From NCBI GenBank assembly GCA_030698575.1, contig JAUYMQ010000192.1, positions 1-16,172 on the forward strand: 16,172 nt of DNA. The letters are read 5' to 3'. Each line of letters starts with the position of its first letter. The first letter of the stretch is position 1. Shown piece by piece: positions 1 through 16,172 of the stretch. The notes under the pieces were generated by a model that saw only the letters and a program-made list of their open reading frames with translations, did no database searches and had not been told where the DNA came from. A program made the translations under genes and the position numbers. The stretch is from Deltaproteobacteria bacterium. Lineage in GTDB: Bacteria; JAUYMQ01.

Positions 1-836
1 GGCCGGGCAAAGTAGATGTACTCGAAGATGCAGAGCGCACGCTTCGTTTCGGGCCAGGGGCGGAGGGAGCGCATCCCCTCCTGGTCCCACACGATCAACT
101 CGCCGGGCTCCACCTCACGGATGTACTCCGCCTCGATGAGATCCAGGGCGCAGGTCTCGCTCGCCACCACCCAGGCGTCCTTCAACCGGCCCAGCGTGAG
201 CGGGCGGAAACCGTGGGGATCCCGCACCGCAACCATCTTGTTTTCCGTCATCAGGACGGCGGAGTAGGCTCCGCGAACCCGCGTGAGCGCCTCGACGAGC
301 TGCTCTTCGAGAAAGCGAGCCTTCGACTGGGCAATCAGATGAACGATCACCTCGGTGTCCATAGTGGACTGGAAAATAGAGCCGTAGGCCTCCAGCTCAT
401 CACGAAGGATGCCCGCGTTGACGAGATTTCCGTTGTGGGCGATGGCAATGGAGCCGCGGGAGTACTCCACCAGGAAGGGCTGCGCGTTGTCGATCCGGCT
501 CTCGCCGCTCGTGGAGTAGCGGACGTGGCCGATGGCCATGCGGCCAGGCAGCGTGGCCAGCAGCTTCTCGCCGAAGATGTCAGCAACGAGCCCCATCTGG
601 CGATGGGCGCGCAGCAAGCGACCGTCGCTCGAGACGATCCCGGCTGACTCCTGACCCCGATGCTGGAGAGCGTAGAGACCCAGGTAGGTGAGGTTGGAGG
701 CTTCCTCGGCGCCGTAGATGCCGAAGACGCCGCACTCGTCGCGCGGGCGGCCGCGCCCCTCGATGGGTGCCAGCGGTAGTGAGTCGCGCGAGGCCGGGAC
801 GGACTGAGGCTCACCGGCGCTTGCCGCGTGCTTCAT
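1..836 (-). CDS. purF: Amidophosphoribosyltransferase (glutamine PRPP amidotransferase), 3' end outside window
   Basis: PurF makes 5-phosphoribosylamine from PRPP and glutamine, the committed first step of purine synthesis in the cytoplasm. The first 278 codons are visible and the gene runs off the left edge. Residues 33-42 read [10 protein letters not shown]. In this family the Cys (here Cys35) becomes the N-terminal glutaminase nucleophile once a propeptide is removed. Other Ntn-glutaminase landmarks are ALQHRGQES (56-64), HVRYSTSG (104-111), HNGNLVN (134-140) and RDPHGFRPL (205-213). The last residues, [10 protein letters not shown], begin the conserved linker into the phosphoribosyltransferase domain. 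The start ATG overlaps the purL stop (ATGA). A full AGGAGGT Shine-Dalgarno at 845-851, inside the purL 3' end, leaves 8 nt to the ATG. The 34-residue propeptide is long compared with the roughly 11 residues of the Bacillus enzyme. The remaining Fe-S cysteines, if any, lie outside the window. Confidence 0.97.
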
Positions 837-3800
837 GAGCGGGCACCTCCTGCAGCGAAGCTACCACCGCCCCCATCCCCCCGCAACGCGGAGGTGAGGC
901 CCGTGCTCCAGGCGGCCCGGAGATCGGAGAGCGCCACGTCGATCCAGTCGTTCACGCGGATCCGATCGCCCCCCACCTCACCGATCACGGCGAATGGGGC
1001 GCCCGCCTCGCGGGCCAGCGCCTCGGCCCGGGCCCGCCCTTCCGGGCGGAAGCTCACGAGAATACGAGACGCGCTCTCGCCGAAAAGCAGCGCATCGGGC
1101 CTGCCCTCCGCGCCTATGCGGACGGTCGCGCCGATCGGCCCGCCGTCCCGGCCGGAACCGGCCAGCGAGCACTCGGTGAGCGCCACCGCCAGCCCGCCGT
1201 CGGCGCAGTCGTGGGCAGAGCGGAACAGGCTCGCTGCGATCCCCGCGCGGCAGGCGGCCTGCACGGCCTTTTCGAGCCGCCAGTCAAGGCGCGGCGGAAG
1301 GCCGCGTTCAAGGCCGTGGACGCGGGCGAGATACTCGCTCCCGCCGAGTTCATTGCCCACCTCTCCGAGGAGGGCGATGAGATCACCGGCCTCCGCCCAG
1401 GCCGGGCCGGCGGAGGCGGCCCGGTCGTCGAGAAGGCCCACCATGACAATGGTCGGGGTGGGGTGAATCGCCGTGCCGCGCGTTTCGTTGTAGAAGCTCA
1501 CGTTCCCGCTCACCACGGGCGTTTCGAGCTCACGGCAGGCCTCGACCATCCCCTCGACGGCCTCGGCGAACTGCCACATGATCTCGGGCTTCTCCGGATT
1601 GCCGAAGTTCAAGCAGTTGGTCACGGCCTGCGGCGCCGCCCCGGTGCAGGAGACGTTTCGCGCGGCCTCGGCAACGGCCAGCGCGGCACCAGCGCGCGGA
1701 TCGAGATAGCAGAAGCGGCTGTTGCAGTCGGCGCTGATTGCGACTGCCTTGTGCGTCTTCTGGATCCGGATGAGAGCGGCGTCGCCCCCACAACCCTGGA
1801 TCGTATTGGCCCGCACAAGGCTGTCGTACTGGCGGTAGACCCACTCCTTGCTGCAGAGGTTCGGGGAGCCCATGAGGGCGACAAGCGTGGCGCCGAGATC
1901 AGCCGGCGGCTTCACGCCCGCGAGATCGAGGGTCTGCACCTCGTCCTGCCAGTCCGGCCGCTGCATGGGCCGCTCGTAGACCGGCGCCTCTTCGGCCAGC
2001 GGCTTGACCGGAATCTCCGCCACGGACCGCCCGTCCTGAACGAGGCGAAGCCGCCCATCGTCGGTCACGGTGCCCACCACCTCGACCTGCAGGTCCCACT
2101 TCCGGAAAATCTCCTCGACCCCCTTCTCGCAGCCCTGCTTCGCGACCAGCAGCATCCGCTCCTGCGATTCCGAGAGCATGATTTCGTAGGGCGTCATGCC
2201 CTCCTCGCGGAGGGGAATTCGCGACAGATCCAGCTCGATGCCCACGCCTCCCCGGCTGGCCATCTCGAGCGAGGACGAGGTGAGCCCCGCGGCCCCCATG
2301 TCCTGGATCGCGACGACGAGATCCTGCTTCATGACTTCCTGGCAGGCCTCGAGGAGCAGCTTTTCGGTGAAGGGGTCGCCCACCTGCACGGTCGGGCGCT
2401 TCGCCTCCGCGCCTTCCCCGAACTCCTCGCTCGCCATCGTGGCCCCGTGAATGCCGTCGCGTCCGGTGCGGGAGCCCACGTACATGACCGGGTTCCCCAC
2501 CCCCGCGGCCACGGCCCGGAAGATCCGATCGGTCCGCACGAGCCCTAGGTTGAAGGCGTTCACGAGGATGTTGCCGTTGTAGGAAGGGTGAAAGGCGGTT
2601 TCGCCGCCGACGGTGGGACAGCCGAAGGAGTTCCCGTAACCGCCGATCCCCCGCACCACGCCGTCGATCAGGTGGCGCTGCCAGGGGTCGGCGGGATCTC
2701 CGAAGCGAAGCGAGTTGAGCGAGGCGATCGGCCGGGCGCCCATCGTGAACACGTCGCGCAGGATTCCTCCGACGCCCGTGGCCGCACCCTGGTAGGGCTC
2801 GATATAGCTCGGGTGGTTGTGGCTTTCGATCTTGAAGGCCACCCCGTAGCCGTCGCCGATGTCGATGACGCCGGCGTTCTCCCCCGGCCCCTGCAGCACC
2901 CGCTCGCCGGTCGTGGGGAGCTTCCGGAGGTGCACGCGGCTCGATTTGTAGGAGCAGTGCTCGCTCCACATGACGGAGAAGATCCCGAGTTCCGTCATGT
3001 TCGGCGTTCGGCCGAGGATCTGGAGCACGCGGCCGTACTCATCGGCGCTTAGCCCGTGCCGGGCGGCGGTTTCCCCGGTGACCGGCGCCTCCTCCCCGGC
3101 CGGGGCGGGGCGCTTCCTGGCAGAGGCCGTCCCGGGGGTGCGGGAGCCGGGGTTTCCGGCATCCGGCGGCGCCACAGGCGCCTTCCGGCCGAGATAAATC
3201 AGGGCCCCCTCGAACATGCGCCGGGCATCGGACCCTCCCAGCAGCCCTTCCACCGCGTGCTCCGGGTGGGGCATTAGGCCGAGCACGTTTCCGGCCGCGT
3301 TCGTGACGCCGGCGATGTTGCCAAGAGAGCCGTTCGGATTGGCCGCGTCGCTCACGCGACCTTCGGCGGTCGCGTAGCGAAAGGCGATCCGGCCGCTCTC
3401 TTCGAGCGTGCGGAGTGTGGCTGGGTCGGCGAAATAGCACCCCTCGCCGTGCTTGATCGGGAACCGCACCACCTCGCCCGCGCAGAGGCCGGCGGTCCAG
3501 GGCGTGCCGGCGTTCTCGACGCGGAGGGGCTGGTGCGGATCGCAGACGAAGCGAAGTGAGCGGTTGCGCACGAGGACGCCGGGCAGCAGACCGGCTTCGC
3601 AAAGAATCTGGAAGCCGTTGCAGATTCCCAGCACGAGGCCGCCCGCTTCGGCGAACCGCCGGATGGCTCCCATGACGGGTGAGAATTTCGCCATCGCGCC
3701 GCAGCGCAGGTAGTCTCCGTAGGAGAAACCTCCGGGGAGCACAACGGCGTCGAGATCGGTGAGCAACTCCTCGCGGTGCCAGACAAAGCGCGCGGAGGCG

Positions 3801-3901
3801 CCAAGCACGCGCGAGAAGGCGTGGTAGGTATCGTGATCGTCGCAGGAGCCGGGAAAGACCACGACTCCCACGCGGATGTCCTCGCGACCCCGCTCCTTCA
3901 C
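833..3901 (-). CDS. purQL: Fused FGAM synthase: PurQ glutaminase + PurL synthetase in one chain
   Basis: FGAM synthase converts FGAR, ATP and glutamine to FGAM; PurQ supplies ammonia and PurL does the ATP-dependent amidation. The start is GTG at 3901, overlapping the purS stop (GTGA) with GGAGA just upstream, giving 1022 residues. The same frame is open upstream to 4024, but that part lies inside purS. Residues 10 to about 238 are a complete Pur[11 protein letters not shown] (57-66), nucleophile Cys94 in GICNGFQ, and His212/Glu214 in PHPEH. A Pro/Ala-rich linker of about 40 residues (about 239-279) follows with no stop codon. Residues from about 280 are small-type Pur[13 protein letters not shown] (311-322, His315), [16 protein letters not shown] (357-372), VGDPFTEK (507-514), IQDMGAAGL (532-540), SGNVSFYNE (798-806). 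Both halves look intact. Large FGAM synthases carry the glutaminase at the C terminus, so this order is reversed, and PurS remains a separate gene. A separate PurL from an internal start is possible. Confidence 0.95.
845..851 (-). promoter_or_regulatory. Strong Shine-Dalgarno for purF inside the purL 3' end
   Basis: The minus strand reads AGGAGGT, a full match to the anti-SD core, 8 nt before the purF ATG at 836. It lies within the last codons of purL, in a Gly-rich, poorly conserved tail. This fixes the purF start and shows translational coupling through the ATGA overlap. Confidence 0.85.
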
Positions 3902-4143
3902 GCCGTCTCCAGCTCTATCTTCCAGCTCTCGATGAGGGGGTTCGCCAGAAGCTTCTCGCTCATCTCGTCGAGGAGCTTCCGGGCCTTCCCGGGAGGGAGA
4001 TCGGCCAGTTCGATGACGAAGCACTTTCCGGCCCGGAGGTCGGTGACGGCGTCGTAGCCCAGGGCGTGTAGCGATCCCTGGATGGCTTTCCCCTGGGGAT
4101 CGAGCACCCCTTCCTTCGGCAGTACGATGACCCTGGCTTTCAT
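3898..4143 (-). CDS. purS: FGAM synthase subunit PurS
   Basis: PurS is the small bridging subunit of the PurS-PurQ-PurL form of FGAM synthase; it joins glutaminase and synthetase and helps ammonia transfer. The 81-residue product is the normal size. It has the family pattern of a beta-strand start ([18 protein letters not shown]), the middle [18 protein letters not shown] and a C-terminal strand ESWKIELE. The next two domains downstream are PurQ and PurL, which confirms the assignment. The gene begins 48 bp after purC, and its TGA overlaps the GTG start of purQL (GTGA, 3898-3901), implying coupled translation. A separate PurS is what a small-type PurL needs, so the downstream fusion does not replace it. 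Confidence 0.95.
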
Positions 4144-4167
4144 GCTTGCCTGTCCCCTTCCCCCTGA

Positions 4168-4184
4168 TCGCCCCGAGGGGGCGA
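4168..4184 (-). other. Stem-loop in the purC-purS gap
   Basis: A perfect 7-bp inverted repeat (TCGCCCC, 3-nt loop, GGGGCGA) lies between the purC stop and the purS start. No U-run follows on the transcribed strand, so it is not an intrinsic terminator. It may tune mRNA processing, polarity or stability, but no function can be shown from sequence alone. Confidence 0.5.
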
Positions 4185-4191
4185 GCTACCG

Positions 4192-4929
4192 TCAGGACCC
4201 GCAGATCCGCCGCGCGACCTCCTCGTAAGACTCCTCGATCCTGCCCAGATCGCGCCGGAACCGGTCCTTGTCCATCTTCTCATGTGTCTTTTTGTCCCAC
4301 AGGCGGCAGGTGTCGGGCGAGATCTCGTCGCCCAGAAGCACGGCGCCGGCTCCACCGCCGGTCGTCCTGCCGAACTCGAGCTTGAAGTCGACCAGACGGA
4401 TCTCGCGCTGATCGAGATACTTCACGAGGAACTCGTTCACCTTCAGCGCTTCGCGGCGAATGTGCAACATCTCTTCACTCGTGGCCAGATTGAGCACCTG
4501 GATGTGATCCAGGTTGATGGGCGGGTCGCTCAGATCGTCGCGCTTGTAGTAGTGCTCGACGATGGGTCGCGGAAGCGACGCCCCTTCCTCCATCCCCAGG
4601 CGCTTGGCGAGGCTTCCCGCCACGACGTTCCGGACCACGACCTCCACGAGGATGATCTGGAGCCGCCGGCAGAGCATCTCCCGGTCGGACAGCTTCGCGA
4701 CGAAATGCGTCGTCACGCCGGACTCGCCCAGGAGTTCGAAGAGATGCGAGGCGATTCGGTTGTTGATAACCCCCTTGTTCACGATGGTCCCGCGCTTCTT
4801 GGCGTCGAAGGCAGTGGCATCGTCCTTGAAGTACTGGATGATCATGTGCGGATCGCTCGTGGCGTAGACGATCTTCGCCTTGCCCTCGTGGAGCTTTTCC
4901 GCCCTTTCGGGTGTGGGCGTGCTGCTCAT
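4192..4929 (-). CDS. purC: SAICAR synthetase (phosphoribosylaminoimidazole-succinocarboxamide synthase)
   Basis: PurC joins aspartate to CAIR with ATP to give SAICAR, a late step toward IMP. The 245-residue length is normal for the single-domain bacterial enzyme. It opens with [13 protein letters not shown], the ATP-binding N-terminal hairpin. It carries both classical family signatures: [17 protein letters not shown] in the middle and [11 protein letters not shown] near residue 200. [12 protein letters not shown] follows. The ATG has GGAGAG five bases upstream. The gene lies 42 bp after purB and 48 bp before purS. PurB acts on the product SAICAR, so adjacent genes encode adjacent steps. Nothing appears truncated. 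Confidence 0.97.
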
Positions 4930-4971
4930 CAGGCTCTCCAGGCCGCCGGCACTTCTGCCGGGCGACGGGGG

Positions 4972-6324
4972 TTAGGGCCGCTTGCGCGGCTTGCGGGGCT
5001 TTCTGGTGTTCTTCCGGCTTCCGATCTTCGCGCCGCCGAAGGCGCGCTTGAAGAGTGTGTCCAGGTGACGCAAGTGATCTTCCAGATCGAAGCAGGCATC
5101 GAGGTCGGCTCGCTTCAGCACACGGGAGACATCAGGGTCCGTCGCGAGGAGCCGCTTGAACTCCTCACCCTCCTTGAGTGTGCGCATGGCGCATCGCTGA
5201 ACCCACTCATAGGCGTCCTCGCGCGAGACGCCCCACTGGGCCAGTGTGATCAGGACGCGCTGGCTGAAGATGAGGCCCTGGGTGAGCGCGAGATTGCGCT
5301 TCATCCGCTCGGGATAGACCACCAGCCGCTCGAGGAGTCGCGTGAGGCGCGCCAGCATGTAGTCAAGGAGGATGGTTGAATCGGGCGCGATGATCCGCTC
5401 GACGCTCGAGTGGCTGATGTCCCGCTCGTGCCAGAGGGGAACGTTCTCGAGCGACGCCAGGGCGTTGCCGCGCAACACGCGCGCAAGCCCCGACAGGTTC
5501 TCGGAGGCGATCGGGTTGCGCTTGTGAGGCATGGCCGAGCTGCCCTTCTGCCCCTCCGAGAAAAACTCCTCCGCCTCACCCACCTCGGTGCGCTGGAGGT
5601 GCCGGATCTCCACCGCAATCTTCTCGATGCTCGCTCCGACGATCGCGATCGTGGTGAAGAACTCTGCGTGGCGGTCCCGCTGCACCACCTGCGTGGCAAG
5701 GGGTTCGGCAGCGAGGCCGAGCCGGTCGAGCACGGCCCGTTCGACGGCGGGATCGAGGTAGGCGAAGGTGCCCACGGCACCCGATAGTTTTCCCACCGCC
5801 ACGGCGTCGCGGGCGCGCAGAAGCCGAACCCGGTGACGTGTCATTTCAACGTGCCAGAGGGCGAGCTTCAGGCCGAAGGTCGTCGGCTCGGCGTGCATCC
5901 CGTGCGACCGGCCGACCATCACGGTGCGCTTGTGCTCCCGGGCCCGCTTCTCGAGGATGGCGAGCAGCGCATCGATGTCCTCGATCAGCAGTTCGGCGGC
6001 GGCGGAGAGCTGGAGCGCAAGGGCGGTGTCGAGCACGTCGGAGCTGGTGAGCCCCATATGGATGTAGCGCGCGTCGGGGCCGACGTTTTCGGCAACGTTT
6101 GTCAGGAACGCGATGACGTCGTGCTTGACCTTCTTCTCGATGGCGTCGATGCGCGCGGGGTCGAATCGCGCCTTCTTCTTGATCGTCTGCAGCGCGCGCC
6201 GGGGAATTTCACCTCGCCGCGAAAGCTCTTCGCAGACCGCCAGCTCCACGCGCAGCCAGCCCCCGTATTTCGCTTCCGGGGACCAGAGCGCACTCATCTC
6301 CGGCCGGGAATATCGCGGTATCAC
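4972..6324 (-). CDS. purB: Adenylosuccinate lyase
   Basis: PurB removes fumarate from SAICAR to give AICAR and from adenylosuccinate to give AMP. The 450-residue protein starts at GTG 6324, giving IPRYSRPEMSALWS after the initiator, which is typical for the family; GGGGGA lies 5-6 nt upstream. Catalytic landmarks are His68 (KHDV), TSSDVLDTA (93-101), His141 in RSHGMHAEPT, and the fumarase/lyase loop GSSAMPHKRNP (261-271, Ser262-263). The last 16 or so residues are a Lys/Arg/Pro-rich tail (ending RKPRKPRKRP) beyond the usual enzyme end. A small GC hairpin (CCCGG, 5-nt loop, CCGGG; 6332-6346) sits just before the start and could partly hide the ribosome site. The gene follows cdsA by 70 bp with no terminator, so the two are probably cotranscribed. 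Confidence 0.97.
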   Translation of the reverse strand: MIPRYSRPEMSALWSPEAKYGGWLRVELAVCEELSRRGEIPRRALQTIKKKARFDPARIDAIEKKVKHDVIAFLTNVAENVGPDARYIHMGLTSSDVLDTALALQLSAAAELLIEDIDALLAILEKRAREHKRTVMVGRSHGMHAEPTTFGLKLALWHVEMTRHRVRLLRARDAVAVGKLSGAVGTFAYLDPAVERAVLDRLGLAAEPLATQVVQRDRHAEFFTTIAIVGASIEKIAVEIRHLQRTEVGEAEEFFSEGQKGSSAMPHKRNPIASENLSGLARVLRGNALASLENVPLWHERDISHSSVERIIAPDSTILLDYMLARLTRLLERLVVYPERMKRNLALTQGLIFSQRVLITLAQWGVSREDAYEWVQRCAMRTLKEGEEFKRLLATDPDVSRVLKRADLDACFDLEDHLRHLDTLFKRAFGGAKIGSRKNTRKPRKPRKRP

Positions 6325-6379
6325 GGTTTCCCCCGGGCCGTCCGGGCGACTCGACCGCCCCGACGGAGAAGACGCTGTC

Positions 6380-6407
6380 TCAGCCGTTCACGCCTCAGCC
6401 GCTCACG
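6380..6407 (-). repeat. 15-bp imperfect tandem duplication across the cdsA stop codon
   Basis: On the plus strand TCAGCCGTTCACG is followed after two bases by TCAGCCGCTCACG, a period of 15 bp with 12 of 13 core bases matching. On the minus strand this repeats the last codons and stop of cdsA, giving a second in-frame TGA five codons downstream. It looks like a small slippage duplication. Confidence 0.7.
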
Positions 6408-7396
6408 AAAGAGCGGAAAAAGAACCATGCGCTCATGTAATAGTACAGGACCGGAAAGGCCACCATGTTGCTGTCGATGCGGTCGAGCATCCCCCCCATG
6501 CCGGGGAAGATCGTGCCCGTGTCCTTGGCCTTCGCGTCGCGCTTGATGAGCGATTCGGCGAGATCGCCGAGAATTCCGAATACCGAGAGGAGCGCCGCGA
6601 TGAGCACCGCCTGCTGAAGCGGCAGCACGGGACTCGTCAGGATCCAGAAGTTGAACACCGCCCAGGCGACGAGTCCGAGGAGGATGCCCACGAGGGCTCC
6701 GCCCACGGCCCCCTCGACGGTCTTGTTGGGGGAGACGCGGGGCGCGAGCTTCAGCCGCCCGAACCGCCGCCCGACGAAGTAAGCGCCCACGTCGGTCCCC
6801 GCAACGGTAACTATACAAAAGAGCAGAAGGAAGATCCCGAGCTTGTCATCAACGAAAGCGCCGCCCATCCAGAAAGGCCCCTCCGCGGGCGCCCCGTACT
6901 TGATTCGCAGGATCTCATCCATCCGGCGGAGCAGAATGGCGTGGGACATGAGCCAGCCGACGTAGAAAACCCCGAAGAAGGTGGCCGAGATGTCAGAAAT
7001 CGCCTCGGCGATGTCCTGCTTCAGGAGCTGGAGGATCATGACCACGAGCAGGACCGCCGTGAGCAGCACGTTGGTCTGGTACTCGTTTCCCACGTAGGCG
7101 ACGATCCCGAGCAGCGCCCCCCCGACGATCCCCGCTGTTTTCTGCGGCCGGAGCCCCTTCGCCTCGATGATCTCGTAGAACTCCCTGAGCCCGAGGCAGA
7201 TGATCGCCACCAAGGTCACCAGGAAGGGGAGCCCGCCGATGAAGATCATGAATATGACGAAGGGAATGATGACGGCTGCGCTGAACAACCTGAGCTGGAG
7301 CGACCGCGAGATTCGCCCCGACTTCGGCGCCTCGTCGGGCTCTTCCGCGCGGCCGGTGGCCGGGATCGGATCCTGGGGAAGGTCGGGTTCGCTCAA
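6395..7396 (-). CDS. cdsA: Phosphatidate cytidylyltransferase (CDP-diacylglycerol synthase)
   Basis: CdsA is an inner-membrane enzyme that makes CDP-diacylglycerol from CTP and phosphatidic acid, the branch point for PE, PG and cardiolipin. From the TTG at 7396 it has 333 residues: a cytoplasmic stretch of about 35 residues, then multiple hydrophobic segments (for example AAVIIPFVIFMIFIGG and LGIFLLLFCIVTVAGTDVG). Conserved parts are SPNKTVEGAVGG (222-233), GDLAESLIKRDAKAKD (276-291) and PGMGGMLDRIDS (298-309). The family signature usually has PGHGG; here Met replaces His. I prefer TTG 7396 because GGAGAAG sits 7 nt upstream. The frame is open to an ATG at 7534, but that ATG has no Shine-Dalgarno, lies just behind the promoter, and would add 46 unrelated residues. 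The gene leads the transcript that continues into purB. Confidence 0.92.
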   Translation of the reverse strand: MSEPDLPQDPIPATGRAEEPDEAPKSGRISRSLQLRLFSAAVIIPFVIFMIFIGGLPFLVTLVAIICLGLREFYEIIEAKGLRPQKTAGIVGGALLGIVAYVGNEYQTNVLLTAVLLVVMILQLLKQDIAEAISDISATFFGVFYVGWLMSHAILLRRMDEILRIKYGAPAEGPFWMGGAFVDDKLGIFLLLFCIVTVAGTDVGAYFVGRRFGRLKLAPRVSPNKTVEGAVGGALVGILLGLVAWAVFNFWILTSPVLPLQQAVLIAALLSVFGILGDLAESLIKRDAKAKDTGTIFPGMGGMLDRIDSNMVAFPVLYYYMSAWFFFRSFVSG

Positions 7397-7545
7397 TCGT
7401 CTTCTCCGCGCGACCTCGGCGGCGCGCGAGCAAGGTTGCTCAGTGAACCCCACCGGCAAGGAACTATCGTGTAACGATGATGACGGGAGTTGCCCCTCTG
7501 CGCGAGGGGCCCAAGGCGCGTCCGACCAGAGCATATCCGGAAGGA
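7397..7545 (-). promoter_or_regulatory. Structured leader upstream of cdsA
   Basis: If transcription starts about 7 nt after the -10 element, about 150 nt precede the TTG start of cdsA. This stretch contains a perfect 7-bp stem (GCCCCTC, 5-nt loop, GAGGGGC; 7492-7510) and a 5-bp stem (ATCGT, TAC, ACGAT; 7466-7478). Neither is followed by a U-run. I do not recognise a purine riboswitch or another known riboswitch here. The region could instead be extra N-terminal coding sequence if the ATG at 7534 is used. Confidence 0.4.
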
Positions 7546-7567
7546 TCGGAAATTCTATACCCGATCC
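7543..7567. promoter_or_regulatory. Operator-like inverted repeat enclosing the -10 element
   Basis: A perfect palindrome, GGATCGG-N11-CCGATCC, has 7-bp arms at 7543-7549 and 7561-7567. The 11-bp centre holds the TATAGAAT -10 sequence of the minus-strand promoter. Arm spacing places the half-sites about 18 bp centre to centre, near two helical turns, as is usual for dimeric repressors. It does not match the Bacillus PurBox or the E. coli PurR operator as I know them. As RNA it could also fold only if transcription started upstream. The regulator is unknown. Confidence 0.5.
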
Positions 7568-7583
7568 GCGCGCGTCGCGTCAA
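7552..7583 (-). promoter_or_regulatory. Predicted sigma70 promoter for cdsA and the pur operon
   Basis: TTGACG (7583-7578, 5 of 6 to the -35 consensus) overlaps the dut stop codon. After an 18-bp spacer comes TATAGAAT (7559-7552), which can serve as -10 TATAGA, or as TAGAAT with a longer spacer. It is a conspicuous AT-rich island in a GC-rich setting and points toward cdsA. Confidence 0.6.
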
Positions 7584-8035
7584 TCGCCCGTGTGCCCGAA
7601 ACCACCTTCGCCCCGCTGGCTGGCGGGAAGCGCGGGCACCTCGTCCCAGAGCGGCCTGACCACGGGCGCAACGATAAGCTGGGCGATGCGATCGCCGCGA
7701 CGGATCGTCACCGGCGCCTGCCCGAGGTTCACAAGGATCACGCAGACCTCCCCCCGGAAGTCGGCGTCGATGGTGCCGGGGGCGTTGGCCACGGTGAGAC
7801 CGTGCCTGAGCGCCAGCCCGCTTCGCGGCCGTACCTGCCCCTCGTAGCCCGAGGGCAGCGCCAGCGAGAACCCCGTGGGGACGGCTGCGCGCTCGCCGGG
7901 AGCCAGGGTCAGGTTCTCCTCGAGCGCGGCCCCGAGATCCACGCCGGCCGCCTCTGGCGACATGGCCGCCGGGAGGGGCAGATCGGCATCCCGTTCCGGG
8001 CGGACACGCCGTATGGGGATCTTCAGATCTTCCAC
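7580..8035 (-). CDS. dut: dUTPase (deoxyuridine 5'-triphosphate nucleotidohydrolase)
   Basis: Dut hydrolyses dUTP to dUMP and pyrophosphate, keeping uracil out of DNA and feeding thymidylate synthesis. The 151-residue protein is the standard homotrimeric type and all five motifs are present in order: [10 protein letters not shown] (29-38), RPRSGLA (69-75), [14 protein letters not shown] (84-97, catalytic Asp90), RGDRIAQLI (113-121) and [10 protein letters not shown] (141-150). The start ATG follows GTGGAAG, with GGAGG 11 nt upstream. The gene begins 9 bp after the U-run of the pnp terminator, so there is no room for a separate promoter and it probably depends on readthrough. Its stop codon lies inside the -35 of the next promoter. 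Confidence 0.97.
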
Positions 8036-8044
8036 CGGGCCTCC

Positions 8045-8073
8045 AAAAACGACTCCCCGCCGGAAGCGGGGAG
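8045..8073 (-). terminator. Rho-independent terminator after pnp
   Basis: On the transcribed strand an 8-bp perfect GC-rich stem (CTCCCCGC, loop TTCCG, GCGGGGAG) is followed by TCG and five T residues. It starts 10 nt after the pnp stop codon and ends 9 nt before dut. This is the only classic intrinsic terminator I found in the window, and it marks the end of the infB-to-pnp transcript. Confidence 0.85.
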
Positions 8074-8083
8074 AGGTCGGGGG

Positions 8084-10414
8084 TCAGCGGCGCCGGCGAT
8101 GGCTCCGGCCCCCATCATCCCGAGGAGAGGAGTCCTCGGAGTCTTTTTTGCCGCCCTTTTCGGCCTCGCCCTGGGCCTCGTCATCGAGATCGCCGAGCGC
8201 TGCCTTGCGGGACAGGCGAATCTTCCCCTGCGGATCGACGTCGAGACACTTGACCATGACCTCGTCGCCCTCCCGCAGCACGTCCGTGACCTTGTCGACC
8301 CGCTTGTGGGCCAGCTCGGAGATGTGCACGAGGCCGTCGGTGCCGGGGAAGATCTCGACAAAGGCGCCGAAGTCCATGATCTTGCGGACCTTGCCCAGAT
8401 AGACACGGCCGATCTCGGCCTCCTGGGTCAGCTCCCGGATCATGGCCTTGGCCTGCTCGAGCGCCTTCAGGTCGGCGGAAGCGACGCGTACCTCGCCGGA
8501 GTCGTCCACATCGATCTTGGCGCCCGTGCGGCTCTGGATCCCCTTGATGACCTTTCCGCCTGGCCCAATGACGTCGCGGATCCGGTCGGGCTTGATCCAG
8601 ACCGTCTCGATTCGCGGCGCGTGAGGCGAAAGTTCCGGGCGCGGCGCCGAGAGCGCAGCGTTCATCCGCTCGAGCACGTGGAGTCTGGCCACCCGGGCCT
8701 GATCGAGCGCCTGGGCCATCACCTCGCGGCTCACGCCCTCGTCGATCTTGATGTCCATCTGCAGCGCAGTGACGCCAACCGAGGTCCCGGTGACCTTGAA
8801 ATCCATGTCGCCGAGGTGATCCTCGTCGCCAAGGATGTCGGTCAGCACGGCAACATCAGATCCCTCCTTGATGAGCCCCATGGCGATGCCGGCCACCGGT
8901 GCATTGATGGGCACACCGGCGTCCATGAGGGAGAGCGAACCGCCGCAGACCGTTGCCATGGAGGACGACCCGTTCGACTCGAGCACCTCGCCCACCACGC
9001 GGATCGTGTAGGGGAACTTCACGGCCTCCGGAAGCTGGCCGCGCAGAGCGCGGTCGGCGAGTGCACCGTGGCCGATCTCGCGCCGGCCAGGGCCCCGGAG
9101 AAACTTCGTCTCGCCGGTGCTGAATGGGGGGAAGTTGTAGTGGAGCAGGAAGGTTCGCCAGTGCTCCCCCGTCAGGGTTTCGATGAGTTGCTCGTCATCC
9201 GAAGTGCCAAGCGTCGTCATCACGAGCGCCTGGGTTTCACCGCGTGTGAAGAGCGCCGAACCGTGCGCCCTGGGGAGGATGCCGACCTGGCACTCGATGG
9301 CGCGGACGTCGCCGAGCCCCCGGCCGTCGATGCGCGTCTTGTCCTTCAGGATGCGCATGCGGACGATGTGGCCCTCGAGATCATGGAACCACGACTTGAG
9401 CCGGGCCTCCAGGGCCCGGATCTCCCGGGCTGCGGTCTCCAGCTCCGCGGGGCTGCCCAGGCTGCGCTGGCGGGCCTTCTCGGGCGCCACGAAGGCTTCC
9501 GTCATCTCGTCTCGCGCCGCCCTGATCTGCTCGCGGCGCTTCTGCTTCTCAGTCACGCTGTAGGCTTCCGTGAGCTTTGGCGCGACGAGATCCTTGAAGC
9601 GCTTGAACTCCTCGAGGTGGGCGGAGGCGGCCTCGTCGCCAGCCGCCTCGCCGGAGAGCACGCGCTCCATGCGCTGGTGGGTCACCGGCGCGACGAAAGC
9701 GATCTTCTCGATCGAAAGCCCCTCCGCGAGGCGCGTCTTCTCGACCGCCGCCCGCAATTCCTTCTGGATCGCAATGAGGGGCCGGATCGCCTCGTGGCCG
9801 AACAGGAGCGCCTCCACGATGTCCGACTCGAGAATCTCCTTGCCTCCCCCCTCCACCATGACGATGGCGTCCTCGCTCGCCGCGAGGATGATGTTGAGAT
9901 CGCAGTCGGCAACCTGACTGTTCGTGGGATTGGCGATGAGCTCACCGTTGATCCGCCCCACGCGCACGCCCGCGATCGGTCCCTGGAAGGGGATGTCCGA
10001 TATTGTCAGCGCAGCACTGGCGCCGGTGATCGCGAGCACGTCCGCATCGCATTCGGGATCCGACGAGAGCACGGTGGCGATGATCTGCGTCTCGTTCCTG
10101 AAACCTTCCGGAAAGAGCGGCCGGAGCGGCCGGTCGATGAATCGCGAGGTCAGGGTTTCCTTCTCGGTGAGCCGCCCTTCGCGCTTGAAGAACCCGCCGG
10201 GAATCTTTCCCGCGGAGGAGGTCTTCTCGAGGTAATCGACGGTAAGCGGGAAAAAGTCGATCCCCTCCCTCGGGAGCCCAGAGGAAACCGCAGTGACAAG
10301 GACCATCGTGTCGCCGTATGAAACAACCACCGCGCCATTGGCCTGACGGGCTATCGCGCCCGTTTCCAGCCCAAGCGCCTGGCCTCCTACTTCAGTTGTA
10401 AGCTTGATTGACAT
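8084..10414 (-). CDS. pnp: Polyribonucleotide nucleotidyltransferase (PNPase)
   Basis: PNPase is the trimeric phosphorolytic 3'-5' exoribonuclease of RNA turnover. The 776-residue protein has the full layout: first RNase PH domain (about 10-145) with the RNA-contacting GGFFKREG (73-80); a helical linker domain (about 210-350); second RNase PH domain with GSSSMA (482-487) and the catalytic aspartates Asp530 and Asp536 in [11 protein letters not shown]; a KH domain with GPGGK (617-621); and an S1 domain (about 668-738). A charged tail ends in SHRRRR. It is longer than the roughly 710-residue E. coli enzyme. Most of the excess lies between the two RNase PH domains (about 260-345), because the catalytic aspartates are shifted about 44 residues while the N-terminal part is in register. 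It lies 129 bp after rpsO, the classic neighbour. Confidence 0.98.
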
Positions 10415-10543
10415 ACCCTCTCATCCTTCCCAGGGCGCGGCCATCCGCACCCCTGTCGCCCGAACACCGCCCTTTGGCGCGTCCCGGCCGGTGACTGATT
10501 AGGAGAGAACCCGGCGGGTCCCCTCGCCTTGGTAAGGAGCCGG
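10415..10543 (-). promoter_or_regulatory. rpsO-pnp intergenic leader
   Basis: These 129 nt separate rpsO from pnp. Imperfect hairpins can be drawn (CTCCTT/AAGGCGAG with a bulge; ACCC-GCC-GGGT; CGCC-AAAG-GGCG), but none has a U-run and I see no convincing promoter. In E. coli the equivalent gap carries RNase III processing and PNPase autocontrol signals; a similar role here is inferred from position only. Confidence 0.4.
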
Positions 10544-10813
10544 CTACTTACGAATTCCCAGCCGATCGATGACTTTCCGGTACCGCTCGATGTCCTTGCG
10601 CTTCAGGTAGTCGAGCAGCCTGCGCCGCTTTCCCACCAGCTTGAGCAAGCCGACGCGGGAGTGGTGATCCTTCTTGTGAAACTTGAAGTGACCGGTGAGG
10701 TGATCGATGCGGGTCGTCATCAGCGCGATCTGCACCTCAGGCGATCCGGTGTCGGTGTCGTGAGTCCGGAAGTCTCCGATAACCTTCTGCTTCTGCTCCT
10801 TGGGCGTTTCCAT
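10544..10813 (-). CDS. rpsO: 30S ribosomal protein S15
   Basis: S15 is a primary 16S rRNA-binding protein of the small-subunit platform and often represses its own mRNA. From ATG 10813 the protein has exactly 89 residues, the family length. It contains the S15 signature region [31 protein letters not shown] and LLDYLKRKD, ending RLGIRK. An upstream in-frame ATG at 10828 would add five residues, but that codon touches the Shine-Dalgarno GGAGGG (10821-10826), which sits 7 nt before ATG 10813, so the shorter start is right. The neighbours truB and pnp are the usual ones. Confidence 0.98.
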
Positions 10814-10933
10814 GTTCGATCCCTCCATTGCCGCTCAATCGAGCGGCGCTAGTCGCCGCAGGCGCCGGATCGGGGCGCCAGGGCCGTGTGGTAAGTCGTG
10901 TTGCCTCGCGCGGCCGCTCGTTCGAGCGGGCGC
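10814..10933 (-). promoter_or_regulatory. rpsO leader with three stem-loops (candidate S15 autoregulatory element)
   Basis: The 120 nt between truB and rpsO hold three perfect inverted repeats in transcript order: CCGCTCG-AA-CGAGCGG (10929-10914), GGCGCC-N7-GGCGCC (10879-10861), and GCCGCTC-GATT-GAGCGGC (10847-10830). The last ends a few bases before the GGAGGG ribosome site. The first and third share the core CCGCTCGA..GAGCGG. No U-run follows any of them, so they are not intrinsic terminators. S15 leaders are known in several bacterial groups, and this position fits one. Confidence 0.5.
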
Positions 10934-11881
10934 TCACTCGTAATCGTGAAGAACCCGTATAGTCCGGAGCCGCATCCGCCCGGACCGCTCCTCGACAACC
11001 TCCGTGAGGGCGACCACACCACCCGCAGGCCCAAGAATCATGACGCGATCACCCGCCCGGCTGCCCGAGGGCGCGTCCGGGGGCTGCCCCTGCGCGGCCC
11101 GGGCTGCGGTATCTGCATCGACCAGGCTGGGCGTCCACTCTTCCGCCAGGGCCTCGGCCAGCGGGATGAGGTGCTTCCCGAGCGCCTCTCCCTTTCCTTC
11201 GAGAAGGGCCTCGAGCGGCTGGGCCTGCTCGATGCTGAAACGCCCGCTTCGTGTCCGGCGAAGGCCCGCCAGCGTTGCGCCGCAGCCCAGTCGCCGCCCC
11301 AGTTCCCAGGCCAGCGTGCGGATGTAGGTTCCCTTGGCGCAGGTCACACGCAACGTCAGTTCGGGAAGGGCCACCGACTCGATTTCGATTGCCCGGATCG
11401 AGACCTTCCGCGGCGCCCGATCGACTTCCTTGCCGGCCCGGGCCAGCACGTGAAGCCGCACCCCCCCTTGCTTGACCGCCGAGTACATCGGCGGAACCTG
11501 CTCAATCTCCCCGACGAGGCCCGCAGCCTCGCGCGCGATGAGTTCGGGGCTGGCCCCCGCCCAGTCAGCCTCGCGCGTCACGGTACCCGTGACATCCTGC
11601 GTATCTGTCTCAATGCCGAGCCTGACCCGCGCGAGGTATTCCTTCTCGCCCGCCATCAGAAATCGCGAGGCCTTCGTCGCCTCGTTGATGCAGACAACCA
11701 GGAGCCCCGTCGCAAGCGGATCGAGCGTGCCGGCATGCCCCGACCGCCGAACTCCCGGGAGCCGCCTGAGCAGCTCCACGACGTCATGGGAGGTGAGCCC
11801 CGCGGGCTTGTCCACCAGCAGGACGCCGTGGCGCCTGCCGGGGCCCTCAACCGGGGGCAAGGAGCGCCCGGGCACGCTCAT
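10934..11881 (-). CDS. truB: tRNA pseudouridine(55) synthase TruB
   Basis: TruB converts U55 of the tRNA T-loop to pseudouridine. From ATG 11881 the protein has 315 residues. It carries GVLLVDKPAGLTSHDVV near the start and the family motif GHAGTLDPLATGLL, whose Asp54 is the catalytic residue. KGTYIRTLAWELGRRLGCGA and LRRTRSGRF follow, then a C-terminal extension with a PUA-like strand pattern. An alternative GTG start at 11890 adds three residues and has AAGG upstream; the ATG has only a weak site, so the start is uncertain by these few codons. Either way the 5' end overlaps the nrnA 3' end by about 35-44 bp, indicating tight coupling. Confidence 0.96.
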   Translation of the reverse strand: MSVPGRSLPPVEGPGRRHGVLLVDKPAGLTSHDVVELLRRLPGVRRSGHAGTLDPLATGLLVVCINEATKASRFLMAGEKEYLARVRLGIETDTQDVTGTVTREADWAGASPELIAREAAGLVGEIEQVPPMYSAVKQGGVRLHVLARAGKEVDRAPRKVSIRAIEIESVALPELTLRVTCAKGTYIRTLAWELGRRLGCGATLAGLRRTRSGRFSIEQAQPLEALLEGKGEALGKHLIPLAEALAEEWTPSLVDADTAARAAQGQPPDAPSGSRAGDRVMILGPAGGVVALTEVVEERSGRMRLRTIRVLHDYE

Positions 11882-12860
11882 CGATCTCACGCCTGACCTT
11901 TTCGAGCGACCCCTTCACCGTGCAGCCCGAGGCGTTCCGGTGTCCGCCGCCCCCGTAGGCCGCCGAAATGAGGGTCGTATCGACCCGGCCCTGCCCCCTG
12001 AGCGAAACCTTCCATTCCTCGGGGCCGATCTGACGCAGAAGGAAGGCCAGCTCCACCCCCGCGATACCGCGCGGGTAATTGACGAAGCCCTCCACGTGCT
12101 CCGGGCCGGTTTCGGTCTGCTCGAACATCTCCGTGCTGACAACCACCGACGCCACGCTTCCGTCCTTCGTGATGTCGAGCGTGCCCAGCACGCGGGCGAG
12201 GAGCCGGTAGGTTTTCTCCTCGTTCGAATCAAAGATCTTCTGCGAAACGAAATCGGGCCGCGCGCCGCAACGAACCAGTTCCGCCGCAGCTTCGAGACAC
12301 TCGGGGTTCGCGTTCGAATACCGGAACGATCCCGTGTCCGTCACGAGGCCGCACAGCAGGTTCGTCGCCACATCGACCGAGATGGGGTGCCCGAGAGCCT
12401 TGAGGACCCGGAAGACCAGCAGCGCCGTCGCGCAGGCGCCCGGGTCGATGTAGTTCACTTCCGCAAAGCCCTGGCTGGAAACGTGATGGTCGAGGTTCAC
12501 GAAGCGAAAATCCGCCCTCCGCGACAGCATCTCGGGACCGACGCGCTCCAGCTCGCCGCAATCGCAGACAATCACCGTGTCACCGGGCCGTGCACCATCG
12601 AGGGATTGCACGACTTCTCCCGCGCCTGGAAACGGCTTGAGCACGCGGGGAACCGGATCGGCGTTGTAGAGGATGGTCGTCTTGCCCATCTCGCGCAGCG
12701 CGAGGCCGAGGGCAAGGCTGGATCCGAGCGCATCCCCCTCGGGGTTCCGATGCGCGGTCACCAGAAACCGGTCCCGTTCGCGGAGAATGCGGAGGACCCC
12801 GGCCAGGGCGCCCTCTGAAGCGTGCGGGCCGGCGGCGCGAAGCGCGGCCGGTTCACTCAT
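11847..12860 (-). CDS. nrnA: DHH/DHHA1 phosphoesterase, NrnA-type oligoribonuclease/pAp phosphatase
   Basis: Members of this family degrade 2-5 nt RNAs and dephosphorylate pAp, using Mn-dependent chemistry. The 337-residue protein shows the DHH domain: TAHRNPEGDALGSS (35-48; His37, Asp43), Asp100 in VCDCGELERVG, the DHH triad at 124-126 (NLDHHVSS), and GLVTDTGSFRYSN (171-183). The DHHA1 domain ends with GGGGHRNASG (303-312), the substrate-phosphate loop. Bacterial nrnA homologues commonly sit between rbfA and truB, as here. Its ATG overlaps the rbfA stop (ATGA). Members differ in preference (oligoRNA, pAp, cyclic-di-nucleotide products), and sequence alone does not settle which applies. Confidence 0.93.
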   Translation of the reverse strand: MSEPAALRAAGPHASEGALAGVLRILRERDRFLVTAHRNPEGDALGSSLALGLALREMGKTTILYNADPVPRVLKPFPGAGEVVQSLDGARPGDTVIVCDCGELERVGPEMLSRRADFRFVNLDHHVSSQGFAEVNYIDPGACATALLVFRVLKALGHPISVDVATNLLCGLVTDTGSFRYSNANPECLEAAAELVRCGARPDFVSQKIFDSNEEKTYRLLARVLGTLDITKDGSVASVVVSTEMFEQTETGPEHVEGFVNYPRGIAGVELAFLLRQIGPEEWKVSLRGQGRVDTTLISAAYGGGGHRNASGCTVKGSLEKVRREIDERARALLAPG

Positions 12861-13195
12861 TCGATGTCTCTCAACAAGTCGCTGATCCTGGCCCCCGTTT
12901 CCAGCGAGTCATCGTGCAGGAACCGAAGCTCGGGGGCGAACTTGAGCCTCAGTCGCCGGCCCAGCTCCCGCCGGATAAAGCCGGCCGCCTTGGTGAGGCC
13001 CACCAGGCTTTCCTCGGATTCTTCTTTCGTCCCTATCCGGCTGAAAAAGACCTTCGCCTGCCGCAGATCCGGCGACATGAGGACATCGGTGATCGTCACG
13101 AGCCCGATGCGGGGATCCTTGAGATCGCGCAGGATCATCTCACTGATCTCGGCCCGGACGGTCTCGCCCACCCGCGACAGCCGCTTGGGAATCAC
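12857..13195 (-). CDS. rbfA: 30S ribosome-binding factor RbfA
   Basis: RbfA is a KH-fold maturation factor that binds the 16S rRNA 5' region in late 30S assembly and is needed for cold adaptation in E. coli. The 112-residue protein is a normal length. It contains KRLSRVGETVRAEISEMI, then LKDPRIGLVTITDV, the conserved KDPRxG..T.T.V segment, then DLRQAKVFFS and LRFLHDDS near the end. The start is GTG 13195 with GGGGA upstream, 24 bp after ylxP. The stop overlaps the nrnA start as ATGA. Placement between IF2 and truB is the widespread arrangement. Confidence 0.96.
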   Translation of the reverse strand: MIPKRLSRVGETVRAEISEMILRDLKDPRIGLVTITDVLMSPDLRQAKVFFSRIGTKEESEESLVGLTKAAGFIRRELGRRLRLKFAPELRFLHDDSLETGARISDLLRDIE

Positions 13196-13219
13196 CAGTA
13201 AGTCCCCGCTGGAGCCCCT

Positions 13220-13606
13220 TCATTCCTCGTCGCCGCGAATGTCTCCGGCGTCGATGGCCTCCCCGTCCTCGAAACCCTCTTCCTCTTCATCCCCGAGAGC
13301 GAACTCACTTTCACCGTCGTTGAAGTGGATGATCTCAATCTGCGAATCGACGATCTCGGCCAGGGCTAGAGAAGCGATGAAGTTCTGAACCTTGTCGAGC
13401 TGGGAGTTCACATGGGGGCCGTCATTTCCCGCCACTGCCAGTCCGAGTTCGATCCTTCGCCAGAGATCATTCGAGCCGATCTCCGCGATCGAAACGTTGA
13501 ACTTGTTCGCCACGCGGCTCTTGATCCGGTTCAGGACGCCACGCTTGGCCTTGAGCGAATTGCCGGCCTGGTGGATCATACTGAGCCTGCAAACCCCAAC
13601 CACCAT
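13220..13606 (-). CDS. ylxP: DUF503 (YlxP-like) protein with an acidic C-terminal tail
   Basis: This is a small protein of the DUF503/YlxP family, commonly encoded between infB and rbfA and thought to assist ribosome or translation functions; its biochemical role is not established. The conserved core is residues 1-96: MVVGVCRLSM, SLKAKRGVLNRIKSRVANKFNVSIAE, and LGLAVAGND. The usual length is about 90-100. Here residues 97-128 form an added tail with 16 Asp/Glu out of 32 (including DEEEE). The ATG has GGAAGG six bases upstream. It lies 101 bp after infB. The gene symbol is by family and position. Confidence 0.88.
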   Translation of the reverse strand: MVVGVCRLSMIHQAGNSLKAKRGVLNRIKSRVANKFNVSIAEIGSNDLWRRIELGLAVAGNDGPHVNSQLDKVQNFIASLALAEIVDSQIEIIHFNDGESEFALGDEEEEGFEDGEAIDAGDIRGDEE

Positions 13607-13707
13607 GGCTGGCCTTCCGTCCCTGGCCTTCGGGGGGACATCCGGTAGTCAGCGGGGGATCGGCCGAACGTCCACCGCCACTGCTCCCCGCGGGACCGGC
13701 TGGAGCG
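13607..13707 (-). other. infB-ylxP intergenic stretch
   Basis: These 101 bp follow the infB TGA. A GCTCC...GGAGC stem enclosing the palindrome CCCGCGGG can be drawn at its upstream end, but no U-run follows and no promoter is evident. Nothing else is supported, and transcription probably continues through. Confidence 0.3.
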
Positions 13708-16172
13708 TCAGGCCCTTGCCCCGGCGGGCGCGGCCCTGGCCCCGGAAGACTCGAGCCGGGTCTGCAGCTCCTCGATGTTGTAGGTCTCCAAAACGTCGCC
13801 TACCTTCACATCGTTGAAGTTCTCGACCCGGATGCCGCATTCGAGGCCGGACTGAACCTCCCGCACGTCGTCCTTGAATCGCCTGAGCGACCCGATCTTG
13901 CCGTCGTAGACCACCACGGAGTCGCGAATGACCCGGATACGGTTCGAGCGCGAAATGGTGCCGTCGGAGATCATGCAGCCCCCGATCGTTCCCAGCTTGG
14001 CGATGCTGAAGACATTCCGCACTTCAGCCCGTCCCGCGACAGTTTCCTTGAGCGTCGGCGCAAGCAGGCCCTCCATCGCCTTGCGGATCTCATCGACCGC
14101 CTCGTAAATGATGGTGTAGAGGCGTATGTCAACCTTCTCCTGCTGGGCCAGCGCCAGCGCCTTGGGGTCGGGCCGCACGTGAAAACCGATCGTGATGGCG
14201 GCGGAGGCGCTTGCGAGGTTCACGTCGCTCTCGTTGATCCCGCCGACAGCGCCATGGATCATCCTGACCTGAACATCCTTCCCGGAAAGCTTTTGGAGGG
14301 CATCGCGTACGGCTTCGACCGAACCCTGGGTGTCCGCCTTGATCACGACGCGAAGCTCCTTTATCTCACCCTCCTGGATCTGTTCGAGGAAGTTTTCGAG
14401 CGTCGGCTTCTCGGCCGCTGTCAGCGAACCCGCCCGATCCTTCTCCCCGCGCTTTTCTGCGACTTCCCTGGCGACCTGCTCGCTCGGGGCGGCGTTGAAC
14501 GGATCGCCCGCGAGCGGCACGCCCGAAAGCCCCTGAACCTCAGCCGGCAGCCCTGGCGTCACTTCCTTCAGCGGCTTGCCCAAATCGTCGTTGATCGCGC
14601 GGACGCGCCCGTGGTGAAAGCCCGCAACGATGTAGTCCCCTTGCCTGAGCGTGCCCTCCCGAACCAGGATCGTCGCGATGGGCCCACGGCCCCGCTCGAC
14701 CCGCCCCTCGATCACCACGCCGGAGGCGAGCATGTCGGGATTGGCCTTCAGTTCCATGATCTCGGCCTGCAGGGCGATGCTCTCCAGGAGCTCGTCGAGG
14801 CCGGTCTTTTGCTTGGCGGAGACGTTGACGAAAATCGTGTCGCCGCCGAGCGATTCGGGGACCAGCTCGTATTCCATCAGCTTGTTCTTGATGCGTTCGG
14901 GATCGGCACCCGGCGTGTCGATCTTGTTGATGGCGACAAGGATGGGTACGCCGGCCGCCTTGGCATGGTCGATGGCCTCGATGGTCTGAGGCATCACGCC
15001 GTCGTCCGCCGCCACAACCAGGATCACAATGTCGGTCACCTGCGCGCCACGCGCTCGCATGGCGGTGAAAGCCTCGTGCCCCGGCGTGTCGAGGAACACG
15101 ATGTTCCCCTTCTTGGTCCTGACGTGATAGGCGCCGATGTGCTGGGTGATCCCGCCTGCTTCGCGGGACGTCACGTTGGTCTGCCGGATGGCGTCGAGAA
15201 GGGAAGTCTTGCCGTGATCCACGTGGCCCATCACCGTGACAACGGGCGGCCGCGGGAGCAGGTCTTCGGGCTTCGCCTCGGCGGAGGAGACGAGAAGGCT
15301 CTCGAACTCGACCGTCACGTTTTCGACTTCAAAGCCGAATTCCTGGGCGACGAGAGCCGCGGCGTCGGGTTCAATCGCGGAGGTGATATTGACCATCATG
15401 CCGAGGCCGATGAGCTTCTTCAGGACCTCGGGGGCTTTCACGCCCATCCGTTTCGCGAAGTCCTGCACCCCGATCTGGCCCGAGATCTTGACGATGCGCT
15501 TGGAAGCCCTGGGCGTTGTGATGAGAGTCTTTCGGGAGTCTTTTTTGACCACCGTGCGCCGCCGGTAGCCCGGCCGGCCACGGCCGTAGGACTGCCCGCC
15601 GGTGGGGCGCACGGAAACGCCACCCCTCCAGGTCGGGGCGCGCTGCGCAAGACCCGGCAGCTCCTCCGGTAGCACCTCGATAACCTCGCGGCCGCGGCGC
15701 ACCACAGGCTTGAGCGTCTTCTTTTTCGGCTTCCCTTCGTCCTTGTCCTTATCGCCGCGCCGCCGGGCCGCCAGGCCGTCATCCTTGTCGTCGGCCGGGA
15801 GCGGCTTTCGCGCCGTTTCGGCCGGCGCGGCGGTCGCAGCCGCAGCGCCGGGCTGCACCGTTCGAGGCGCCTCCACCGCGGACGGCGTCTCGACAACCGC
15901 AGGAGCAATCGGTGTTGCCTCGGGGGCGATCGCGGGTGCGGCTCCCGCCTCGGCCTCCTTGGCGACGAGCGCCTCCTCGGGAGCGGGGGGCGGAGGCGGC
16001 GCCTTCGCCTGCCGACGCCGGATCACGCCGCCGGCGACCCGCTTCTCGACCATGCGGCCGCGCTGATATTCCCCGATCTCTTCCTTGATCTGGTCGACGC
16101 TCTCTTCGGGAATGGCGCTCATGTGGGTCTTGAGCGGCCTTCCGATTCCGCCCATGATCTGCAGAAACTCCT
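13708..16172 (-). CDS. infB: Translation initiation factor IF-2, 5' end outside window
   Basis: IF2 is the GTPase that places fMet-tRNA on the 30S subunit and drives 50S joining. The first Met in frame is at 16155, but the frame stays open to the edge and reads [19 protein letters not shown]. That is the middle of the usual IF2 N-terminal subdomain (ELL..G...K.HMSA), so the true start lies beyond 16172. Counting from the Met at 16155: [13 protein letters not shown] (36-48), a long Pro/Ala then Lys/Arg-rich linker (to about 220), the IF2_N domain (about 223-280), then the GTPase with GHVDHGKT (310-317), GITQH (335-339), DTPGHEAF (356-363), NKID (410-413) and SAK (446-448). Domains II-IV follow with no gaps. 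The C terminus is a short Ala/Gly/Arg tail. This is the most upstream gene seen of the operon. Confidence 0.97.

Follow-up and report, generated by a model that had tools for sequence, protein, structure and literature searches.

The fused gene and its surroundings

The window (the whole stretch of DNA analyzed here, 16,172 nucleotides) holds on its minus strand one uninterrupted frame, from a GTG at 3901 to a TGA at 833, that encodes 1022 amino acids: the glutaminase PurQ, a linker, and a small-type PurL, the FGAM synthetase. The calculated mass of the product, 108.2 kDa, bears out the figure of about 108 kDa offered in a preliminary description of this DNA, which had proposed the fusion from inspection. 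PurS stays outside, as that description also held: it is specified by its own gene of 81 codons (3898-4143, minus strand; NF004630, PF02700), which overlaps the start of the fusion by 4 bp (GTGA). At the other end, the stop of the fusion overlaps the ATG of purF (ATGA), of which only the 5' part (1-836, minus strand; the product is named from its sequence) lies within the window edge.

The purC (4192-4929; TIGR00081) and purB (4972-6324; TIGR00928) genes precede purS on the same strand. The minus strand from 4192 to 16155 also contains a run of housekeeping genes pointing in one direction: infB, ylxP-like, rbfA, nrnA-like, truB, rpsO, pnp, dut and cdsA (names of genes other than purB, purC, purS and the fusion are taken from reading their translations). 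The run leads directly into purB-purC-purS-purQL-purF, and the arrangement is operon-like from infB to purF. Only one match to the fusion protein occurs in the genome assembly (4.13 Mb in 653 contigs, 91.6% complete), and a further purQ or purL was not found there.

Both enzymes are complete. The PurQ region (residues 1-240; 3182-3901, minus strand) matches two NCBIfam models above their curated cut-offs: NF002957 at 303.6 bits (cut-off 212; residues 10-234, model positions 2-217 of 222) and TIGR01737 at 282.2 bits (cut-off 177.8; residues 9-234). The PurL region (residues 274-1022; 836-3082, minus strand) matches NF002290 at 1039.4 bits (cut-off 648; residues 284-1004, model positions 1-721 of 723), also from NCBIfam, as is TIGR01736, which covers the same residues. 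The Pfam domains of the fusion are GATase_5, FGAR-AT_linker, two AIRS and two AIRS_C. The Cys-His-Glu triad of PurQ is intact (Cys94, His212, Glu214) and the catalytic residues and motifs of PurL are present (His315, WSEHC, and SHNHPS with His361 and His363), those named in the preliminary description falling exactly where it had placed them. Measured against columns that are at least 90% conserved among 72 PurQ and 109 PurL rows, the fusion departs at four PurQ and three PurL positions. The most notable departure is at Asn20 of PGSNCD, which is 97% conserved in relatives and is Cys here. (The fusion reads PGSCDDHD at window positions 3830-3853, minus strand, where PGSNCD is the near-universal form.)

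Between the two enzymes lies a Pro/Ala-rich linker. It had been estimated at about 40 residues; its character stands, and its length is 33 residues (241-273; 3083-3181, minus strand).

An AlphaFold2 model of the fusion (mean pLDDT 86.9, pTM 0.88) predicts that both enzymes are well folded and that the linker between them is disordered, with pLDDT below 50 at residues 240-270. (A technical note: the alignment supplied for this model included neighboring purQ-purL genes that lie in frame, with the stop between them read through as one residue.) The PurL half of the model superimposes on Thermus thermophilus PurL (3viu) with Z 49.9 and an rmsd of 1.5 over 697 residues, and on Thermotoga maritima PurL (3d54_A) with Z 42.3; the PurQ half matches T. 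maritima PurQ (3d54_D) with a TM score of 0.92 by target length (Foldseek). The pTM is well above the share of the chain length that PurL accounts for (about 0.72), which suggests that PurQ has a defined placement in the model. It is unlikely that geometry forbids native docking: a disordered linker of 33 residues would span on the order of 100 angstroms. Structure searches matched no single chain to PurQ and PurL together; given the reverse order of the large enzymes this is no surprise, and no weight was put on it.

How rare is the fusion?

Searching PurL homologues for an N-terminal PurQ, as the preliminary description had suggested, turned up the fusion in two genomes, that of the window and G452 (described below), and none in 80 named loci from many phyla, in which a purQ stop precedes purL wherever both genes are seen. 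A PurQ match was found in 179 of a broad set of 386 genomes; among the matches listed, only the window and G175 place PurQ in a frame at least 900 residues long. The G175 frame (1022 residues) was set aside as an upstream extension open by chance in GC-rich DNA; the purL of that genome lies on another contig. Also rejected were the long frames of G036 and G037 (1025 residues each) and of G149 (982 residues), in all of which a stop separates purQ from purL. In viral contigs purL and purQ are separate, and on plasmids the two are separately annotated where they are annotated. Roughly 770-800 different genomes (an estimate) were examined in all, under a strict score limit that could have let weaker fusions pass. 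The open-access literature searched makes no mention of a PurQ-PurL fusion.

The survey also met purL genes that are unusual in other ways. The PurL of G016 (L103:1800-4976, plus strand; 1059 residues) has an insertion of about 230 residues (178-407) in the loop after SLRFG. Residues 230-367 of it match the model of a REP-associated tyrosine transposase weakly (NF047646, E 1.9e-6, below the cut-off); the insertion has no Pfam match and apparently lacks the catalytic histidines. To judge from its sequence, it looks like a transposase-like domain domesticated in a purine enzyme. A set of IMG/VR viral contigs (L120-L130, at about 4000-6200) carries a short purL of about 530 codons that is missing the last part, including the second AIRS_C, and is followed directly by a small, overlapping purQ.

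The second fusion came to light among 346 genomes searched in the phylum to which G333 belongs, Gemmatimonadota. Fifteen strong end-to-end matches were found, 14 of them with one or more stops; G452 has none. (Other long frames on the Gemmatimonadota side, in this search and in that of the family of G452, were rejected for the stops they contain.) Its 1032-residue frame (L141:5676-8771, minus strand), in which Pfam and NCBIfam confirm both halves, lies in a genome assembled as a single 2.9-Mb contig. The order is that of the window: a separate purS upstream, a GTG-started PurQ, a linker, and PurL. The two fusions are alike in this order, in the separateness of PurS and in the Pro/Ala-rich nature of the linker. 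That of G452 differs in its independent origin, in the length of its linker (59 residues of mainly Pro, Ala and Arg), in the absence of an internal ATG, GTG or TTG from that linker, and in having HPD for HPE. (HPD stands at the third position of the catalytic triad, for which HPE is usual.) Among 121 genomes of the G452 family there is no second stop-free case; its genus is represented by one genome in the set.

A tree of 88 PurL sequences places G452 inside Gemmatimonadota, as a neighbor of the unfused L091; the window branches far outside that phylum, in a different and well-supported part. Because the tree sets them so far apart, the two fusions have independent origins. Rare though it is, the PurQ-PurL fusion is a real variant of a familiar enzyme.

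How did the junction open?

How are two separate genes turned into one? The preliminary description had proposed loss of the purQ stop codon as a simple route, and the neighborhoods of many relatives support it. Adjacent purQ-purL pairs (64 of them) lie in the same frame in 23 cases and in the other two frames in 20 and 21, the in-frame pairs being over-sampled by the search behind this count. In-frame neighbors have one or a few stops between them, and this arrangement is common in bacteria. G149, which provides the best-scoring unfused match to the PurL half (984.8 bits), carries both genes in frame, one stop codon apart. Its junction reads ...MGSR-stop-PP-GTG, and that of the window ...LGRKAP-GTG. 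Since many bacteria, G149 included, keep purQ and purL in frame and a single stop apart, stop loss is the plain route. An in-frame purQ stop would have been lost at a junction like that of G149 and the spacer would then have grown, the former intergenic DNA becoming a flexible, Pro/Ala-rich linker.

An open linker by itself is no evidence for any of this, because the DNA of codons 241-273 is 83% G+C, and 81% of shuffles of that composition lack a stop. As far as the sequence can tell, what is informative is that PurQ ends without a stop.

The linker may retain traces of an earlier purL start. It contains a GTG, codon 243, that aligns with the GTG start of the G149 purL. Five nucleotides before codon 274, a GTC, stands AGGAGG. 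Its SD energy, -12.1 kcal/mol, is stronger than that of any gene start in the window that was tested; the 11 residues at codon 274 align with ITPEIVKEHGL of G149. It may be suggested, from this alignment, that purL once started at codon 274 and that a valine-preserving change silenced this start. The strength of the SD sequence was dropped as proof of such a relic, since equally strong sites occur inside other genes of the window (in purC at about 240 and in PurL at 570). The GTG at 243 and the AGGAGG before codon 274 could be either working or relic signals for purL initiation.

Alternative readings

Working signals would mean dual products: the fusion together with free PurL, initiated internally at GTG 243 or at the non-standard GTC 274 behind its AGGAGG. 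The SD energy favors such a scheme; the facts that GTC is no known bacterial start, that sites just as strong lie within purC and PurL, and that the G452 linker offers no start codon at all, make it unlikely. A fusion that is an error of sequencing or assembly, with one wrong base masking the purQ stop and a separate purL starting at codon 243, is a quite improbable reading for which there is nevertheless something to be said. The purQ stop and GTG start of G149 (R-stop-P-P-M) align with RKAPV at 239-243, where a single substitution in codon 240 is enough to produce a stop; across codons 236-284 there are eight such single-base changes. Codon 243 has a middling SD energy (-5.7 kcal/mol, equaled or bettered by 24% of internal start-like codons), and the window comes from a fragmented assembly that is the sole representative of its phylum in the genome set compared. 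Against these points, the error is required at one of few positions in a consensus assembly; a purL begun at GTG 243 would carry a 39-residue extension before HGLS, against about 15 residues in G149; and the same architecture has arisen independently in the single-contig genome of G452. The existence of that second, independent fusion makes the architecture credible even allowing for a possible sequencing error.

One can also ask whether this is a large FGAM synthase with its glutaminase moved to the front. The large enzymes likewise hold both activities in one chain, in the order PurS-like domain, linker domain, synthetase, and glutaminase last (PMC3815217, PMC3261824). The fusion has neither a C-terminal glutaminase nor a PurS-like N-terminal domain by NCBIfam and Pfam: its glutaminase occupies residues 9-234 and its synthetase 284-1004, the reversed order that had been recognized at the outset, and purS is adjacent. 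Scores against the large-enzyme models lie far below their cut-offs (TIGR01735, 183.8 bits against 1123; NF003672, 216.6 against 783; TIGR01857, 213.2 against 1057). The PurQ half fits the PurQ equivalog, and the PurL half scores 1039 bits with the small-subunit model NF002290 and 217 and 213 with large ones. Rearrangement of a large synthase can be given almost no credence, and the earlier proposal that the fusion is independent of large PurL holds.

We favor a real PurQ-linker-PurL fusion, which would have arisen once a purQ stop in frame with purL had been lost, with the spacer becoming a Pro/Ala-rich linker, and would work as part of a three-part FGAR amidotransferase; its probability is put at about 0.83. 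A more elaborate proposal is offered tentatively, with the odds somewhat against it: that the PurQ-first fusion is a convergent second route to a joined FGAR amidotransferase, taken through at least two stop losses, and that in the window the purL start was silenced by a change from GTG to GTC (both encoding valine), leaving its AGGAGG intact and the synthetase available only in tethered form.

Function and comparison with known systems

We infer that the frame is translated as one chain, that the product is active and that it docks, and any benefit of tethering is to be understood in the same sense. The PurQ part would release ammonia from glutamine, the PurL part would use it with ATP to convert FGAR to FGAM, and the separate PurS would bridge the two. 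The tether would set the glutaminase:synthetase ratio at 1:1, as had been suggested, in agreement with the PurL:PurQ:PurS stoichiometry of 1:1:2 reported for the complex (PMC10912719). Its likely effect is this fixed ratio and a higher local concentration, the chemistry being unchanged. The tether may also limit the ways in which PurS can bridge the two, as the preliminary description had proposed.

A classic ammonia-channelling enzyme can have its glutaminase and synthetase tethered in the order opposite to that described for large PurL, and this has happened at least twice. The unfused complex assembles from three proteins, and the fusions are natural constructs for probing what tethering does when PurS must still join. 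They also set a trap for annotation, in that automatic naming may call the fusion PurQ or PurL alone.

The nearest known system is the FGAR amidotransferase of Gram-positive bacteria and archaea, which consists of PurS, small PurL and PurQ (PMC3815217, PMC3261824). With this three-subunit type (B. subtilis; T. maritima PurLQS, 3d54) the fusion shares its domains, active sites, gene neighborhood and separate PurS, and its sequence and predicted fold match; it differs in making PurQ and PurL one polypeptide through a linker predicted to be disordered. It resembles the large FGAM synthase PurL (S. Typhimurium, 1t3t; eukaryotic PFAS) in combining glutaminase and synthetase activities in one chain, and is unlike it in placing the glutaminase first and leaving PurS separate. 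In the mdPurL of some methanogens, an N-terminal addition of about 200 residues seems to stand in for PurS, and PurQ is a separate protein (PMC3261824). The fusion likewise has a lineage-specific extension at the N-terminus of PurL; unlike that of mdPurL, the added partner is PurQ, and it is PurS that stays separate. This is the known PurSQL system, with the same chemistry and a new connectivity.
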